This document shows positions 17,372 through 64,000 of a stretch of DNA of 64,000 nucleotides, piece by piece. The stretch comes from Taeniopygia guttata (taxonomy: Eukaryota > Chordata > Aves > Passeriformes > Estrildidae), in assembly GCF_048771995.1 (NCBI RefSeq), contig NC_133026.1, positions 11,848,001 to 11,912,000 on the forward strand, read 5' to 3'. The notes beneath the pieces were generated by a model. It saw only the letters and a program-made list of their open reading frames with translations, was not told the DNA's origin and ran no database searches. The position numbers and the translations under genes are program-made. The stretch's first letter is position 1. The number at the start of each line of letters is the position of its first letter.

Positions 17372-17452
17372 GCTCAGATAGGTATGAAATAACAAGATAG
17401 GTATGAAATAACAAGAACAGCTCAGATAGGTGTGAAATAACAAGAACAGCAC
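17372..17452. repeat. Short tandem duplication, about three copies
   Basis: The core 'gataggtatgaaataacaa' occurs three times in a row, the last with a single A-to-G change. Two copies are flanked by 'gaacagc'. It is a minor local duplication in intergenic DNA about 700 bp upstream of the interferon-like promoter. Confidence 0.8.
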
Positions 17453-18136
17453 AGCTGCATCCTAGGTCTGCTTTGAGTTTTAATGGGATTTTAAACTCCC
17501 AGGGAGAAAATGTAATGAAATTTTATTGTTCTTACTATTATTTGTATAACTACTACATTTTCTGATTTTGTAGGGATTAGTTCTCTTGGAAGTTAATTCT
17601 CTTCAGGATGTCAAACCTTCAGTAAAATAAAAATTTCTGCAGATTACTTCATAGAACTCGGTGCAGCTTCTAGAATTAACATGTCTATATATACATACAT
17701 GTGACATGTAATATGTGTGTGTGAGTGAGTTTGTATTTATATTCTGAAGTAAATATAATAGTTATAGAACCACAAACTAAGAAGTTCACACAGAAAGAGT
17801 AGAGTTTAGCTTTTTTAATGTTCAATTACTTACGGGTATAAACCACATTGAGTAAGTTATATGAAAATCTACATTCATACTGTAAAAACAGAAGACAAGG
17901 CTATTCATTTAAAGTAACAGTGCATTCTATATTTTAACACTTGCATGTGAATATTTACAAACTCTTAGCAATAACAGTTTGTAAAAGCAAGTAAGATAAA
18001 AATTAACATTTTGTTCTACATACTTTAGGGTTTTTTCTGTTTAAGTAAAACTTTCAAAACATGCCACCCACATTCCAGGCAACTCTTTGTTGCCTGGAAA
18101 TCAAGACACCTGAAAGGATGGAATACTGAAAGAAGA

Positions 18137-18151
18137 TAGTTTCACTCTGCA
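18137..18151 (+). promoter_or_regulatory. ISRE-like element upstream of the interferon-like gene
   Basis: TAGTTTCACTCTGCA matches the first ten bases of the classical ISRE form TAGTTTCACTTTCCC and 12 of 15 overall. IRF and ISGF3 factors bind such sites in interferon and interferon-stimulated genes. It sits about 60 bp upstream of a TATA-like box and points in the direction of the cytokine gene. Binding is inferred, not shown. Confidence 0.5.
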
Positions 18152-18197
18152 TCATCTACTGGGAGTAGGTGGTCAGAAATTTATAGAAGTGGAAGAC

Positions 18198-18206
18198 TAT
18201 TTAAAA
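18198..18206 (+). promoter_or_regulatory. TATA-like box of the interferon-like gene
   Basis: TATTTAAAA stands about 30 bp before the expected transcription start near 18228. That fits the noncoding first exon that ends at a good splice donor at 18281/18282. Inducible interferon genes typically have TATA boxes. Confidence 0.5.
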
Positions 18207-18227
18207 GGGACTCAGCTGACAGAATGG

Positions 18228-18281
18228 TACCCCAGGAGCCCTACAGAAGTGCACAACCAGGAGCTGAGTATTATCCACAAG
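18228..18281 (+). other. Probable noncoding 5' exon of the interferon-like gene
   Basis: Inferred from a splice donor (CACAAG|GTAGGC at 18281/18282) downstream of the TATA-like box, and from a strong acceptor (pyrimidine tract then TAG at 18951-18953) 15 bp before the start codon. An acceptor that close to the ATG implies an upstream untranslated exon. The left end is an estimate. If transcription started slightly earlier, an ATG at 18224 would open an upstream frame that overlaps the main start after splicing. Confidence 0.45.
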
Positions 18282-18953
18282 GTAGGCTTCTTTGATTTTA
18301 TTGCTGATTTTCTAAATGAGATTTATTTACTCATTTCATTTCTTCCTTTTTACTTCACAACTGTAATGCAAAATGAGTTTATGAAAAAAGTCCAAGTAAA
18401 GTACAACCTTATATTTAGAAGAAACCGCTCTAAATCATGGCGTGAAATAGAGATAGCAAAGTTACATGTTAATATGAATTACAACAAATGGCTGGAAAAC
18501 TGGAAAAACTAGTTTTAAATTAATTAATTACTAGGAAATAGTTTATATTGAGTTGAATTTACTACAGTAAATAATGCCAGTTTTCTATATAGAGTATGTA
18601 TTTATGAAAATAAGTATTTCAGAAAAAGAGAAATGGATTTTTTAAAAAAACCTACATATGCAACCCTTAACAGAAATATAATAATATATAATATATATAG
18701 TTATAAATAAGTATATAATTTTATATCATATTTTTAAAAGGGCTTCCTCATACAATTTTTTTCTATTTATTCATTGGATAAATGTATTTAATTTTCTAAT
18801 GTCCAACCATAAGATCTGAACTATGTCTATCACAGAACATCTTAAAAACAGAGCACAGTGAACAAGCAGGAACTAACAATCGCATACACTTGTGTTACTT
18901 CAAAAATGTAAAACCTGCCTGATTTTATTAAACCTCCTGTCTTCTTCTCCTAG

Positions 18954-19106
18954 TTCCAGAACCTGACAATGTATTGCCCTGGGAGCTTCTTCTTCCTCTT
19001 AACTGCCTGCCTTATTGCTCCATCCTTTGGTAGCCGCCAGGGCAACAGCCACCAGTGCTTCCAAAGTGTGCCGTGGAGTGAGGTTTTACAGAAGATTGAG
19101 CAACTG
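18954..19106 (+). CDS. Interferon-like gene, first coding exon (CDS from 18969)
   Basis: The acceptor TAG ends at 18953 and the donor CTG|GTAAGT lies at 19106/19107. The exon carries 15 nt of 5' UTR and 46 codons: signal peptide, the first mature cysteine C30, and the start of helix A (VPWSEVLQKIEQL). The ATG at 18969 is the first in this exon that gives a signal peptide in the continuing frame. Confidence 0.8.
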
Positions 19107-22100
19107 GTAAGTCAAAGAGTAAAACATTGCCACAAGCTATAGATGTCATTTTCCATCTTTCTTCAGTTTAGGTGTAAGGAATCCTCAGATGTGTAACTGC
19201 CTGATTATGACTTTTTTTCCCCACATAATTAAAAAGTTATGAGTCAGATGTTCCTTCTCTCTAAAACCAAAAAAACTGAAATTTAGATTTTAATTTACAC
19301 TCATCCTGTTGAATATATAACATTGTGTGCCTTCCCAAGAAGAGTGCAGAGTCATTTGGGAGTCCTTCTAATCCCAAGAAGAGTGCAGAGTCATTTGGGA
19401 GTCCTTCTAATTGGCATCAGATGAAACCGTCACTCCATAATGTACTTTACCATGTAATCTCACTGAAAGAAAAAGACATCCACAGTCACAAAGTTTCTGG
19501 TACAAAAGATTGTCTGAAGCTCTATTTGAAATTAGCTATATTGAAAGCTTCCTTTCCCACTTTGGCTTCTTTTGTGGCCTGCCCTTTCCTCATCTCTGTA
19601 CATATTGACATCCCTGGAAAATTTGAAATAAGTTGAATCAAGCAACTATTCTTCCCATTTCAGACAGGCTTGGGAAGCAAATGAATCTTCTTCAAACTCA
19701 TGAGATAAAATGTCAGTGTTGTCAGTTTTACACTTTATTGTTAAGAAACCAACTGAGAAGGGATTTCTATGAATTTTTTATATAATAAACCTGGTTTAGC
19801 ACACGCTTACAGTTTCTTCAATGTTTTCTTTAAGAACAAAAGAGGCTTTTCCTTGGAGTGTGAGGAAGTGAGCAGTGAAGATTTGTGTTTCCCTGAGCAG
19901 ATGCTGAAAGCAGTAAGTAGAAAAACACGCGTATTCGACATTATCTCACTGTAGTGGCTCTACCTCAGCCAGCCTCTGCATCTTGTGATGAGACTTCTAC
20001 ACCAGAATTGTGCCACATTATACTACAGGCTTAAATGATAACTCTGACTGTTTACTTTTCAGTCTAAATTATTTCCTGGATAAGCTATTTATGGAAGTAA
20101 TTTTTTTCTTCTTTCTTCTACTATTTAAATCACAATGCCACTTTTACAAGAAAAGTGTTAGATTTTTCTTGTTAGTCCTGCTGTTTAAAGGGGAAAAATT
20201 AGTTGGAATCAGTGTGGTAGCCTGGAAACCACCAGAACAGCATGCTGGCCTCAGTTTCAGTCAGCAGCAGATCCCATAAAGGCAGTGCAGAGGTAATTCC
20301 ATGTACTACTTGGCACATACATCATGTGCACAGCTCACTTTGCATCCAGATTTGCAATGCCACAAAATAAGGCCCTGTGCCCCAACAATTCATTCTCCAT
20401 GTTTCCAGCTCATCTCTTCAATGGATCTTCTAAAATGCACCCAGGGGACAAAAGGGCAAAGGATGGCAATATTGGCCTCTCCTGTATTTCGTCTTCTCTG
20501 AGGTAGAGGGAGCTGCCCTTCATCACATAGGGACTGAGCTTGGGAGGAAAGCCCTGCACAGTCTGATGTCTTGGGCCTGAATTCAAAAGATCTGGTTTTG
20601 CCTCTTGGCCTTTTATTGACTATTGCTTATGCATTTTATATATCAAAGTATATAAATGCAGTCTAAAAATGCAAGATAGATTAATTTTACAAAATAGGGG
20701 TCCTCCTTATGAAAGCAACTTGAATTTAAGCAACTCATTAATTGTAACTGGAAGTTTAACATACAAGTCTCGATTTTCAAATAAATGCCATCTTTGCAAT
20801 GCATGTTACTAGCTAGAATTGTTGTACTGAAAATTTTAGAAAAGTACAGAAAAGTGGTGAAAATTGTTTAACAACTTTGATAATTGTTACAATGAGAACT
20901 GGATAATTGATAATTGTCCAATGATAATTGGACCCAGGTAGTTTAAAAATTAACTGATGTTTAGGTGCAGACTTCAGAAACTGAATTTTTTATACTATTT
21001 TTTATCATGACAGGTTAAATATGATAATGCAGCCATTGTTCACATAGTGCATGAAATTGCTGAGTTTTTCAAGAGAGCAGACACTCCTTTTCAAAATAAG
21101 GACACTTTTCTAAGAGAAATGTATGAGACTCATGCTCAGCTCAAGACATGTGTAAGTACAATTTATTCATTTATATAGCATGATAGTCTAGTCAGGTATT
21201 CATGGTGAATAAAACTGACAATATATATGTTGAAAATGCAATAGAAAACTTAAAAAACTACATTTTTAAATAATGATACCTAAATCTTATGTCTGAAAGT
21301 AAAGACAGGTATCTTTCAACTATTTAACTGACCTGTATGATACAGGCCAATTTTAAATTCACACATTATGTTTATGGCCTTATTTAAAGATATGATGCCA
21401 AAAAACAATGTTTAGCTTTCTTCTCCTCAAAGACTGCACTAGCTTTATACAGAAGTATTTACTATTTTAACTAAATATCAATTTAATGTGTTTTTCTTCA
21501 AGTATCTATGACTTCTGTCAAGACAAGCTAACATAAAGAATTACATGCAAATTGTAGGCAAACAACTTTAGGTCTGCATTCAGCCTATTTCAGCTGACTG
21601 AACTACTTAAACATATGTGCAAATAGTTTACTCAGTTGGGGTCAGCTTAAGAACTATTTACAGAGGACAAAGCCTCAGATTTATTGTAGCTTCCCTTGCA
21701 GCTAATGCCTGTGCCAGGCATCAGATTTGCCTGCAGGAAAGCAAAACTGGGCATACAAAGGCGCACCCTGCCCATCTGTGGCCATCTGTGGGAGGGAACC
21801 ACTGCTCAGCTCTACAGGGCAGAGGGCTGGACACTGGCCTGAGCAGGAGCACTGACATCCAAACCCACTCTGCTGCTCCTGACCAGGTCATGCCCCAGGA
21901 ATAAGTGTGTACAGCCATGGACAATAACTACTGCTTAATACACATATAGACACATACACATCAATAGATATTTTGTGTTACTGATCGAACATAATCACCT
22001 CTGTACATCTGTAACACTGAATGTCAACGACCACCAGTTACTCTGAAATCTGTTTCCTTCAGGCAGCACACACTGACAAGACCAGTATTGCCACAAAACA

Positions 22101-23730
22101 AAAAGACCCACAGACCCTTGCCTTGTCCTGAAATATTATTCCCTGATCTCTCTGCAGACAGTGCGCTGCACTAACTTTAGCATTAACCCGTTCAGCAGGC
22201 TTGCATATGGCAGCAGAATTACAGTGCTCTCAGTTGATAATCATGTCCATCAGAGGGCACTGTTTGAACTTTTATATACTAGCCATTGTTCAAATTAACA
22301 GTTTTCTCTCCTCTCCTCTCCTCTCCTCTCCTCTCCTCTCCTCTCCTCTCCTCTCCTCTCCTCTCCTCTCCTCTCCTCTCCTCTCCTCTCCTCTCCTCTC
22401 CTCTCCTCTCCTCTCCTCTCCTCTCCTCTCCTCTCCTCTCCTCTCCTCTCCTCTCCTCTCCTCTCCTCTCCTCTCCTCTCCTCTCCTCTCCTCTCCTCTC
22501 CTCTCCTCTCCTCTCCTCTCCTCTCCTCTCCTCTCCTCTCCTCTCCTCTCCTCTCCTCTCCTCTCCTCTCCTCTCCTCTCCTCTCCTCTCCTCTCCTCTC
22601 CTCTCCTCTCCTCTCCTCTCCTCTCCTCTCCTCTCCTCTCCTCTCCTCTCCTCTCCTCTCCTCTCCTCTCCTCTCCTCTCCTCTCCTCTCCTCTCCTCTC
22701 TCTTCTTTTCCCTTCCTCCTTCCCTTCCCTTCCCTTCCCTTCCCTTCCCTTCCCTTCCCTTCCCTTCCCTTCCCTTCCCTTCCCTTCCCTTCCCTTCCCT
22801 TCCCTTCCCTTCCCTTCCCTTCCCTTCCCTTCCCTTCCCTTCCCTTCCCTTCCCTTCCCTTCCCTTCCCTTCCCTTCCCTTCCCTTCCCTTCCCTTCCCT
22901 TCCCTTCCCTTCCCTTCCCTTCCCTTCCCTTCCCTTCCCTTCCCTTCCCTTCCCTTCCCTTCCCTTCCCTTCCCTTCCCTTCCCTTCCCTTCCCTTCCCT
23001 TCCCTTCCCTTCCCTTCCCTTCCCTTCCCTTCCCTCCAGCTGAAGCCCAGACGTAACATCAGCCATGAGTCTATAGTGAGAGACTGCTTCAATAAAATGG
23101 AGGAATTTGTGGCCAAGGTAAGTAGGCTGTTTCTTTCCAGCCTGTTTTACTTTAAGGAACTCTAAAGATAAAAAGCAGCTTCTTATGCAAGAAGTCCCAC
23201 TGCTGATCAAAGCTGCACATGCCTGTGAAATTGTGCCCCACTTCCATGCACTATAGATTTTCACTCACTGAAAATCTTTTGGTCCACACTCATGTTAAGG
23301 CCATTGTATCAGCATGGGCTTTTAAAAAGCATTTCATTTTAATTCAGCACCAAAACCCATGGCAGTCTGTGCCTATTTAGAAAAGCTTTACATCACTTTG
23401 GACAGGATTAACCATGTGTCTGTTGGTGGAAAAGAAATGGTCATCATATATACCAAAGAATATTTATAATTTAGATAGAATTTTCTAAAATAAATTTTAA
23501 TATTTTCTTAAATTTCTTTTAAATAACTATATGCTTCTTCTCAACTCACATTTTGCTTGCCATAATATTGGATGTATTTTTTTACAAACCAGTTAACAGA
23601 CACTTCTTAATAGCCTTTTTTTTTTTCACAGTCAAATGACCACTGCATTTGGCAAGAGATCCATGCACATTCCAGAGAGATACTCCAAAGAATTGAAAAC
23701 TACTCTTTCAAGAGAAGAGCAAAGCATTAG
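18969..23730 (+). CDS. Type I interferon-like cytokine with five coding exons
   Basis: Joined exons 18969-19106, 19835-19912, 21014-21151, 23040-23117 and 23632-23730 give 176 residues with no internal stop. Every intron is GT-AG and phase 0. Residues 1-21 are a hydrophobic signal peptide (FFFLLTACLIA core); the mature part is about 155 residues and predicted helical. Six mature cysteines are C30, C55, C64, C118, C134 and C149. C30-C118 and C55-C149 correspond to the two conserved IFN-alpha disulfides. The C-terminal HCIWQEI...REIL corresponds to the CAWE.VR.E helix of type I interferons. N-glycosylation sites lie at N124 (NIS) and N167 (NYS); the tail KRRAKH is basic. The expected role is a secreted antiviral cytokine acting through IFNAR1/IFNAR2, which is inferred from the family. 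The exon plan matches intron-containing interferons of fishes, amphibians and reptiles, whereas classical bird IFN-alpha and IFN-beta are intronless. IFN-kappa-like is possible. A type III IFN or IL-10 relative is less likely because of the Cys-x-Trp motif. Confidence 0.8.
19334..19411. repeat. 39-bp perfect tandem duplication
   Basis: Two identical 39-bp units (19334-19372 and 19373-19411) lie in the first coding intron of the interferon-like gene. The open frame that spans them is incidental. Confidence 0.95.
19835..19912 (+). CDS. Interferon-like gene, coding exon 2
   Basis: 26 codons between TTTAAG|AAC and GCA|GTAAGT, both phase 0. It encodes the A-B loop region with C55 (SLEC) and C64 (DLCFPEQML). 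The spacing of these two cysteines, followed by an F-P/F-N-rich segment, resembles the LC...SCSF stretch of chicken IFN-alpha as I recall it. Confidence 0.8.
21014..21151 (+). CDS. Interferon-like gene, coding exon 3
   Basis: 46 codons between CACAG-type acceptor (GACAG|GTT) and TGT|GTAAGT, phase 0 at both ends. It encodes helix B/C-type sequence (IVHIVHEIAEFFKR) and the segment FLREMYETHAQLKTC, which parallels the interferon stretch leading to the third conserved cysteine, here C118. Confidence 0.8.
22306..22700. repeat. (CTCTC)n pentanucleotide array, 79 units
   Basis: 395 bp of uninterrupted CTCTC units inside the third coding intron of the interferon-like gene. All pyrimidine on the + strand and mirror-symmetric, so able to form triplex (H-DNA). 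The perfect uniformity implies recent expansion and likely length polymorphism. The long open frames on both strands here are products of the repeat. Confidence 0.98.
22720..23034. repeat. (TTCCC)n pentanucleotide array, 63 units
   Basis: 315 bp of uninterrupted TTCCC units, separated from the preceding CTCTC array by only about 19 bp of irregular pyrimidines. The array ends five bases before the first base of coding exon 4, so the repeat itself supplies the pyrimidine tract of the 3' splice site. Confidence 0.98.
23040..23117 (+). CDS. Interferon-like gene, coding exon 4
   Basis: 26 codons, acceptor CCTCCAG|CTG and donor AAG|GTAAGT, phase 0. It carries the N-glycosylation site N124 (NIS) and C134 in a helix-like segment (SIVRDCFNKMEEFVAK) that parallels the helix just before the CAW motif of type I interferons. 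Confidence 0.8.
23632..23730 (+). CDS. Interferon-like gene, last coding exon
   Basis: 32 codons plus TAG, after a long T-rich tract and CACAG. It encodes the signature helix with C149 and W151 (HCIWQEIHAHSREILQRIENYS), a glycosylation site N167, and a basic tail KRRAKH. A Cys-x-Trp followed by an amphipathic helix is the most diagnostic part of type I interferons. Confidence 0.8.
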   Translation, partial: SNDHCIWQEIHAHSREILQRIENYSFKRRAKH

Positions 23731-23912
23731 CAAAGTCAGTTTCCATCACATACTTCAGGGATCTTCTATCAAGTCAAGATGTAAAAATTAAAGGAAGAAG
23801 CAAACTCACTGCTTGCATTTAGGGTTATAAACAGATTAATTTATTTTTGTCAATATATTTTTCTAAACTAATATAAAAACTTAAGCCTTAATAAAAAGGA
23901 TGTAAAAAACTC
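23731..23912 (+). promoter_or_regulatory. 3' UTR with AU-rich motifs and poly(A) signal
   Basis: AATAAA at 23890-23895 is the first canonical poly(A) signal after the stop codon. The UTR between contains ATTTA (23839-23843) in a U-rich setting, and further TATTTATTT sequence lies just past the signal. AU-rich elements in the 3' UTR are usual for short-lived cytokine mRNAs. The end near 23912 is an estimate. Confidence 0.55.
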
Positions 23913-26900
23913 TATGTGAATATATTTGTATTTATTTGTTTTACAAAACCAAAGGTGATATTTCTCATAAAACTGGTGTCATAGATAACACCCTCCAAAG
24001 CTGTTTTCAAGCTAAAAAGTGAGCATATCAGTTACACTATTTGATTTCACATCCATCAGGCTATGGAAATACAAATCTCTGACAGCCTAATGCTTTTCCA
24101 ATGCACATCTCACATTTGCACTCTTGCACTTTTACCACTGCAGTCACAAGACTCCCTGACCATTCATGTGTGAAAAGATCAGCCTCTTTCCACAACACTG
24201 TGCTGCCAGGCTTCCACAGCCATTCAGGAATTCTGAGATCGCAGTTTCACCATCCAGATGCAAATTTTATATATGTATAGATATTTTTAAAAACACATAC
24301 AACAAAACAAGCAAACAAAAAATCTTCACATTCTGTTGTAAAGACTAGCAACAGCAAAACACCTTTAAATGCTCACATGGCATCTAATAGGCACTGGCAG
24401 CAATGCATACTGGCACATTTTTCCAAACAGCTCACTGATTATTTGAGAGGCTGTAGAAGAAGATAACATCTATGAAACCGACAGTTTTGAAGGATAGAAA
24501 GGAGGGGTATAGTGAATGAACAGTGTTTCATAATATCTTTCAGCAGCATGATATGCCTAATTCCTTTGGTTCCTGATTTCTAGGCACTGATTTTCAAGCT
24601 GTCTCTTCAGGCAAAGATGTTAAAACAAATCAGGACACTGCAAAAGATTCTAATACTTACACTTAACTTAGATTGTGCAAAGATGAAAAGAGTAAAAATA
24701 TTTGTAAATATTTGTAATTTGTAATTTTCTTACCATTTTTGGACATTGGTTTTATTGGTTGCTTGGTTTGTTGGTTTTAAATCTGGTTTGAGTCTTTACA
24801 GGCAGCTTAGCACCTCATTACAGTGTGACTTTCCCAAAGTCAAAAGATCCCTTCATCTCTCCTTTCAAAAATGGCTTCAGAAAAAAGCCCAAAAACCCAT
24901 TTATGTTTTATGTTTACAAAGAAATAAAAAAGTAACTAGTTAATCAGTATTAACCCTTTTGGACCATCACTTTGTCACCAAGTTTAACAACAAACAGTGT
25001 TGTGTGCATTCTTTCATGACATATTCATTATACTGCCCTGTTCCTGCATCATCTGAATTGGAAAGCATTCACTCAGCTGAGACTTGATCAGTGTGCAGAC
25101 ACTGTTCCAGCTGAAAAAAATAACGCCCTGAAGTCACACAGAAATCAGTACAAGAATCAAAATTCTTCAATGAATAAATTCCACTAAGCCAAATAATACA
25201 TTAAAATAATGAACAGACTTTCCACATCTTTGAACTGAGGGAGTGTTTTGCATTCATTACCTTCTAGGGCAGATATTGATACACATTAGTGTTATTTTGA
25301 CATGAATCTGGCCTTCCCATCATAAATGGTACAGTGCCAGTGTAAGCATATTATATATACTGATAACATTAAATACTTAAAAAGAAAATTGTAGCAATAA
25401 TAATAATAATAAAGTCTTACTGCCACTTTGCAATGTATTCCCTTGACTATAGTTCAATTTAAAACATACACATATTTATTCTGTAACATGTAGACATTTG
25501 TACTTTGAGTTTGGGTACAACTATTATTCTAATTCATACGTCTGAATATTTATTTTAATAGTAGCCATAACCTGTTTTAATCAGATTGGAAAGTACAAAA
25601 AGCATTTAAATTATTTAATGCAGAAAGTACCAGGAGACAAAAACAACTTTGGGAAAAAAAAGGAATGAAGAGATGCACTGGGCTTTCAAGTTTCAGATAA
25701 TGAATCATTTTATGAATGCATCATTTTTACAATAGCTGTCTCAATTTTCTACCACAGAGGAAGATTGAATAGTATTAGGAAATTTTTAGGCATCTAGCAG
25801 TGACACTGTGCATTTCAAATAGCCAAGGGCAGACACTTCAGTTTCTGATGGAAAACCTGGCTATTTCTAACTTGCTTTGGTCTTCAATGAATAAACCAAC
25901 CTGTGCTCTCTTCATAGGAACACATTCTTCTGTGTATTCCCAGATTTGCATGCAAGTTAGAGCAATATATGAAACTAAGACATTTATTATCTCCTTTTTG
26001 GGGACATCAATCACAAGTCATGGCCACAATCCACTCTATGTGCCAGACAGTGACAGAAAGTTTGGACCAGGAGGTATAAGGCTCCATTAGGGACCATTCT
26101 GAGGAAAACTCTCTACAGCACAGGGTAGTCCAAAAATACCTGAGCTAACTTTAAAATGCTTGGCCATAGCATGATCAAAACACAGGCTAGAGATCAGTAC
26201 TTCACTTAGGCTCTGAAGAGCAGAATAACAGCAATCTTGGTTTTATATAAGAAAAATTTAGCATAACTCAGAAAATACTAATGCATAACTCACTATTCAT
26301 GAGTGGTTTATTCAAATTTTTATTTTTCCAGACAAACAGCATTAGAATTGCTAAAGGTTTTTATGCTTTGGGGGAAAAAAGATAGAAGCTATTTAGCATA
26401 TTTTAAAACACTAGTTTTTCAGTGAGAGAGAAAAAGGGAAGGCTGGAGGAAAAAGATTTTTAAAAGGAAGAGAAATAAAAATATGAAATAATTATCATGT
26501 TAAACAGCCTACACTTTTTTCTTGGAAAGATGTACATACAGGATTAAATATATGTTATCTTATTTAGTATATGTTTATGAAGTATTTCAATATGAAAGTA
26601 TTTCAGAATATAAATAAAGCAAGCAGACTGTACACATTCCAAAACAATATCTTTGGAATACACTACATTTATTTTTTTCTCCCATTTGAAGTCACTAGCA
26701 TGCATGAATTTAAAAGTACTCTTTTCTAGTACTCTTTTCAACAACTTATGTCCAGCAAATACGATTTTATCTGTTTAGAGGAATTTGTAATATCAGAAAT
26801 TAAGCATAGTTTATTTTACCAGCTGAGTACACTCAAAATTTCATCTTAAGAGCATCTTTGTAAAACCTTATTCCTCAGTGGCAGCCTTGCTAATTACAAG

Positions 26901-37970: not shown

Positions 37971-38219
37971 TAAGAGCTGCTGCTCTGCCCGCTCTGTTTT
38001 TTTCTTCCCCCGGGCTTTTGCACACAGTCTTGCCCCTTCTCGCAGGTTTTGTGCAGAGATTTACCTGTCGGTAACCACACACCCACACCGGGCTGCTCGG
38101 GCTCTTTTCCCGCAGAGGCCGAACGCGCGGTCCAGCGGAGCGGGGGCAGACCCCGGCGGCCAGGGGCTCCCTCAGCGACCGCGCTCCGCCTCGCCCGCCG
38201 GTGCCGCTCCCGCAGCGCC

Positions 38220-64000
<25,781 letters not shown>

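Follow-up and report, generated by a model that had tools for sequence, protein, structure and literature searches.

The zebra finch (Taeniopygia guttata) carries, within a 64,000-nucleotide (nt) stretch of contig NC_133026.1 (hereafter the window), a five-exon gene that is very probably the bird orthologue of interferon-upsilon (IFN-upsilon; gene IFNU), the type IV interferon. The locus holds a genuine gene, to all appearances intact, whose product is a secreted interferon-like protein; since it fits a published family and locus, it is an already known gene and not a new kind of gene. Its interest lies in being an intact copy from an interferon type that has been little studied, and naming bird records of this kind would make bird virus-response data searchable for a type IV response.

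A five-exon gene for an interferon-like protein

The coding sequence lies on the + strand in five exons which, once joined (18969-23730), give an intact frame of 176 codons and a stop. All four introns (728, 1101, 1888 and 514 nt) are of the gt...ag type and in phase 0, and every exon length is divisible by three. Independently of our choice of exons, tblastn with the Anas (duck) protein matched all five in order; E-values here and below refer to the single 64-kilobase window with the low-complexity filter off.

18969..19106, +, coding exon 1: signal-like N-terminus, start of the mature chain, C30-x5-W36; tblastn Anas E 7.8e-17; 29/46 residues identical to Anas
19835..19912, +, coding exon 2: C55 and C64; tblastn Anas E 2.5e-12; 24/26 identical to Anas
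21014..21151, +, coding exon 3: ends at C118; tblastn Anas E 6.4e-26; 40/46 identical to Anas
23040..23117, +, coding exon 4: C134 and sequon NIS; tblastn Anas E 2.1e-5; 16/26 identical to Anas
23632..23730, +, coding exon 5 with stop: C149-x-W151 interferon-like helix and sequon NYS; tblastn Anas E 4.1e-13; 24/32 identical to Anas

The remaining Anas matches in the window had E 1.2 or worse. Because the five exons were found in order, the chain is not a chance succession of open reading frames. The Bubo (owl) and Caretta (loggerhead turtle) proteins also recovered the five exons in order, the weakest match being that of exon 4 with Caretta (E 5.3e-4).

The N-terminus of the protein has a hydrophobic core that resembles a signal peptide by hydropathy; cleavage would fall near residue 21 and leave a mature chain of about 155 residues. 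Six cysteines follow this segment (30, 55, 64, 118, 134 and 149), and residues 3 and 14 within it are cysteines as well. N-glycosylation sequons are present at 124 (NIS) and 167 (NYS), and the last helix carries C-I-W at 149-151. We thereby reproduced the exon chain of an initial annotation made from the sequence, which had listed the same intact, secreted 176-residue product with six mature cysteines, a Cys-x-Trp helix and two glycosylation sites.

A protein search with the joined sequence returned 10 proteins at E up to 10 (12 candidates), nine of them at E 6.5e-66 or better: models from Oenanthe, Zosterops, Bubo, Anas, Hirundo, Turdus, Chloebia and Willisornis, and record P0005. The eight bird records with a named organism are labelled uncharacterized, hypothetical or unnamed at NCBI, and one is called 'Interleukin' in UniRef. 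A profile search gave 19 proteins, adding the Caretta protein and eight short fragments, all of which carry exon 3 in whole or in part; a third protein search, aimed at frog, lizard and fish relatives, gave 11 proteins, none beyond those already found. Gap-free alignments to the window protein showed 133/176 identical residues in Anas and 139/176 in Bubo, and the Caretta protein is 59% identical. The six mature cysteines, W36 and W151 are conserved in all five aligned full-length proteins (window, Anas, Bubo, P0005 and Caretta).

Probable assignment to interferon-upsilon

IFN-upsilon (IFNU, type IV interferon) has been described across vertebrates (Chen et al. 2022, Nat Commun 13:999, PMC8863823). 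According to that description, the gene lies between ADARB2 and PFKP as a single copy from elephant shark to platypus, with two copies in elephant shark itself; it has five coding exons with all introns in phase 0, an N-terminal CXXXXX[W/L] motif, and a C-terminus and predicted structure that are type I-like (PMC8863823). The receptor is composed of IFN-upsilon-R1 and IL-10R2, and induction of antiviral genes was reported for the zebrafish and Xenopus proteins tested. The gene is reported in birds, a chicken sequence having been compared, and was not found in marsupials and placentals. The family is most like the type I interferons, yet distinct from them in locus, N-terminus, receptor and tree (PMC8863823).

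The window gene shares with this description the five coding exons with phase-0 introns throughout and the N-terminal motif, here C30-FQSVP-W36, of which C and W are kept in Anas, Bubo, P0005 and Caretta. It also shares the signal-like N-terminus, the type I interferon-like C-terminal region and fold, the presence in a bird and the PFKP neighbour, found as follows:

38208..63571, +, PFKP exons: 5' and middle part of a gene that runs off the window; tblastn with human PFKP; PFK motifs

These exons lie downstream of the interferon-like gene on the same strand; the initial annotation had likewise put the gene upstream of PFKP. The PFKP label relies on match identity and published synteny, the query being a human sequence not drawn from a database and the paralogues PFKM and PFKL standing outside the comparison. 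Among the features tested, none argues against membership in IFN-upsilon, and the long pyrimidine tract in intron 3 (see below) is a local feature of the window gene.

From this agreement we infer identity with the published IFN-upsilon and, in zebra finch, a corresponding induction, receptor and antiviral action. If the bird gene works like its zebrafish and Xenopus orthologues, virus sensing would induce it, and its product would be a secreted helical class II cytokine that binds IFN-upsilon-R1 together with IL-10R2; the signal, presumably through JAK-STAT, would then switch on interferon-stimulated antiviral genes. A literature search yielded no separate functional study of bird IFN-upsilon recognisable by title, a weak negative, as most subscription journals and Greek-letter spellings were out of its reach.

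Several observations weigh against this assignment. A human ADARB2 query of the same kind as the PFKP one failed to locate that gene in the window, giving only scattered tblastn matches at E 1.6 or worse, so only one flank of the published locus is observed; ADARB2 may lie beyond the window. The orthology is a probable one, set through the published description. The Pfam interferon profile PF00143, proposed as a check in the initial annotation, did match the window protein, at 24.7 bits, under the curated cut-off of 26.8; for Bubo, P0005 and Oenanthe it gave nothing at E 1 or below. In fold comparisons with Foldseek no match reached E 0.001, the best being a weak 0.029, and confidence varied widely among the five structure models. 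A profile search of solved structures gave four matches, the best interferon (IFN-omega, E 0.63) ranking third behind two unrelated proteins. End-to-end collinearity with the window protein holds for only three of the nine strong matches (Anas, Bubo and P0005): the Oenanthe model has an N-terminal extension from an upstream exon, the Zosterops model a 52-residue insert between exons 3 and 4, the Turdus model lacks exon 2, the Hirundo and Willisornis models diverge after exon 4, and the Chloebia model is partial and ends after exon 3. Finally, splicing of exon 4 could suffer from the 736 nt of pyrimidines at its acceptor.

The deviations in the Zosterops, Turdus, Hirundo and Willisornis models start exactly at exon borders, and the deviating bird models are therefore read as probable gene-prediction errors. 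As to the family profile, PF00143 matched three of the five proteins scanned, with Anas at 25.4 bits, under the cut-off, and Caretta passing it at 41.1; such a distant resemblance is what one would expect of an interferon type in its own right. Two other Pfam families matched the window protein under their own cut-offs (E 0.032 and 0.047), NCBIfam gave only matches far under cut-off for three proteins, and a search of solved structures with the single protein gave nothing significant (one match, to a designed protein, E 4.3). In its predicted fold, the modelled duck orthologue came closest to type I interferons.

The initial annotation had proposed either an overlooked lineage, namely an intron-bearing type I interferon surviving in a bird, or a relocated IFN-kappa relative. 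The lineage is not overlooked, Chen et al. having already described IFN-upsilon at ADARB2-PFKP in birds including chicken (PMC8863823). A surviving type I interferon of the fish or frog style, signalling through IFNAR1/IFNAR2, would account for the type I-like fold, the PF00143 similarity and the five phase-0 coding exons, an organisation that the same paper calls similar to that of fish type I genes. IFN-upsilon itself, however, is reported as most type I-like and yet distinct, and the PFKP neighbour and N-terminal motif seen here are those of IFN-upsilon; the type I interferons of fish that carry introns, for example zebrafish interferon 1 and 2 (PDB 3piv, 3piw), differ from it in receptor, clade and locus (PMC8863823). 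Nor does the gene share the intronless coding region of the amniote type I interferons (IFN-alpha, IFN-beta and IFN-kappa); four introns interrupt it here, and the window protein stays under the PF00143 cut-off that its turtle relative passes. We regard a surviving type I gene as very improbable.

For IFN-kappa, the sole point in favour is that the chicken gene, like the window gene, encodes a bird interferon and lies apart from the main type I cluster (PMC5457445). In chicken, IFN-kappa has its own gene on the Z chromosome, which is reported to encode 184 residues and to have an intron in its 3' untranslated region (UTR) (PMC5457445), as opposed to the four coding-region introns of the window gene, and descent of the latter from a relocated IFN-kappa is improbable in the extreme. 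The annotation's placement of IFN-kappa near MOB3B on Z agrees with that paper as to the chromosome; the name MOB3B is absent from the paper's main text.

The pyrimidine tract before exon 4

Intron 3 of the gene, which we assign to IFN-upsilon, ends in an unusual stretch:

22302..23037, +, uninterrupted pyrimidine tract of 736 nt: closes intron 3, immediately ahead of the acceptor AG of exon 4

Its first part repeats CTCTC about 79 times (100% matches) and its second TTCCC about 65 times (98% matches, 1% indels); the whole holds no A or G. As the tract is free of A, any branch-point A must lie more than 735 nt upstream of the exon 4 acceptor; the A of the closest yTnAy consensus branch site is at 22298, which puts it 741 nt from the acceptor AG. 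Known distant branch points are reported to reach up to 400 nt in a few human exons, and an AG-free stretch is a mark of such exons (PMC1431707). Since no competing AG occurs in the tract, splicing of exon 4 remains feasible, but exon 4 may be included less often.

One reading, compatible with the assignment to IFN-upsilon, is that the gene is losing its function in the zebra finch lineage through hampered splicing of exon 4. The absence of A and G from the tract and a branch site at 741 nt against the published 400 nt (PMC1431707) speak for it, as does the closest of the protein matches, the Chloebia gouldiae model (97% over 67% of the protein), which is incomplete and breaks off at the end of exon 3. 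That match also suggests an estrildid finch or a near relative as the source of the window. The stop in the model, however, may come from a gap in the assembly at a tract of this kind; the tract is AG-free, as in distant branch point exons (PMC1431707), and the reading frame, splice dinucleotides and conserved residues are all intact. Loss of function is on this evidence distinctly unlikely. In a further reading, the IFN-upsilon transcript might rely on a branch point at the exceptional distance of about 740 nt, with an expanded pyrimidine microsatellite in between, and exon 4 inclusion, and hence the amount of working interferon, might then vary with repeat length between individuals or species; we put this forward tentatively, as an unlikely reading.

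Transcript ends and local repeats

Probable flanking parts of the transcript lie on both sides of the coding exons:

18138..18281, +, probable promoter and upstream untranslated exon: pattern scan and donor position; counterpart exon in Oenanthe model P0001
23731..23895, +, 3' UTR: ATTTA at 23817 and 23839, ATTAAA at 23787, AATAAA at 23890; probable end point

A short-pattern scan, run without a chance control, placed an interferon-response half-site (AGTTTC) at 18138 and a TATA-like box (TATTTAA) at 18198, as would suit a gene induced by virus sensing, with more TATA-like matches farther upstream; a splice donor follows position 18281. Promoter function and a transcription start within 18138..18281 are thus suggested by pattern and position. 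The outer limits initially annotated, 18137-23895, do take in the upstream exon and the 3' UTR with its AATAAA, and are plausible as ends, though not proven.

The upstream exon contains an open frame (18114-18281), which the 232-residue Oenanthe model P0001 translates as its N-terminal extension. We rejected a start there. The matching frame of the window has no ATG (ATA stands at the Oenanthe M), and the TATTTAA box falls within that frame; for these two reasons translation most likely starts at 18969.

An Rfam scan of the whole window gave no matches at gathering thresholds, and a phage collection searched with 18001-24000 gave none. Two tandem repeats were also noted: intron 1 holds an exact tandem duplication of a 39-nt unit (19333-19411), and upstream of the gene a 29-nt unit is repeated in about two copies with 93% matches (17395-17454).
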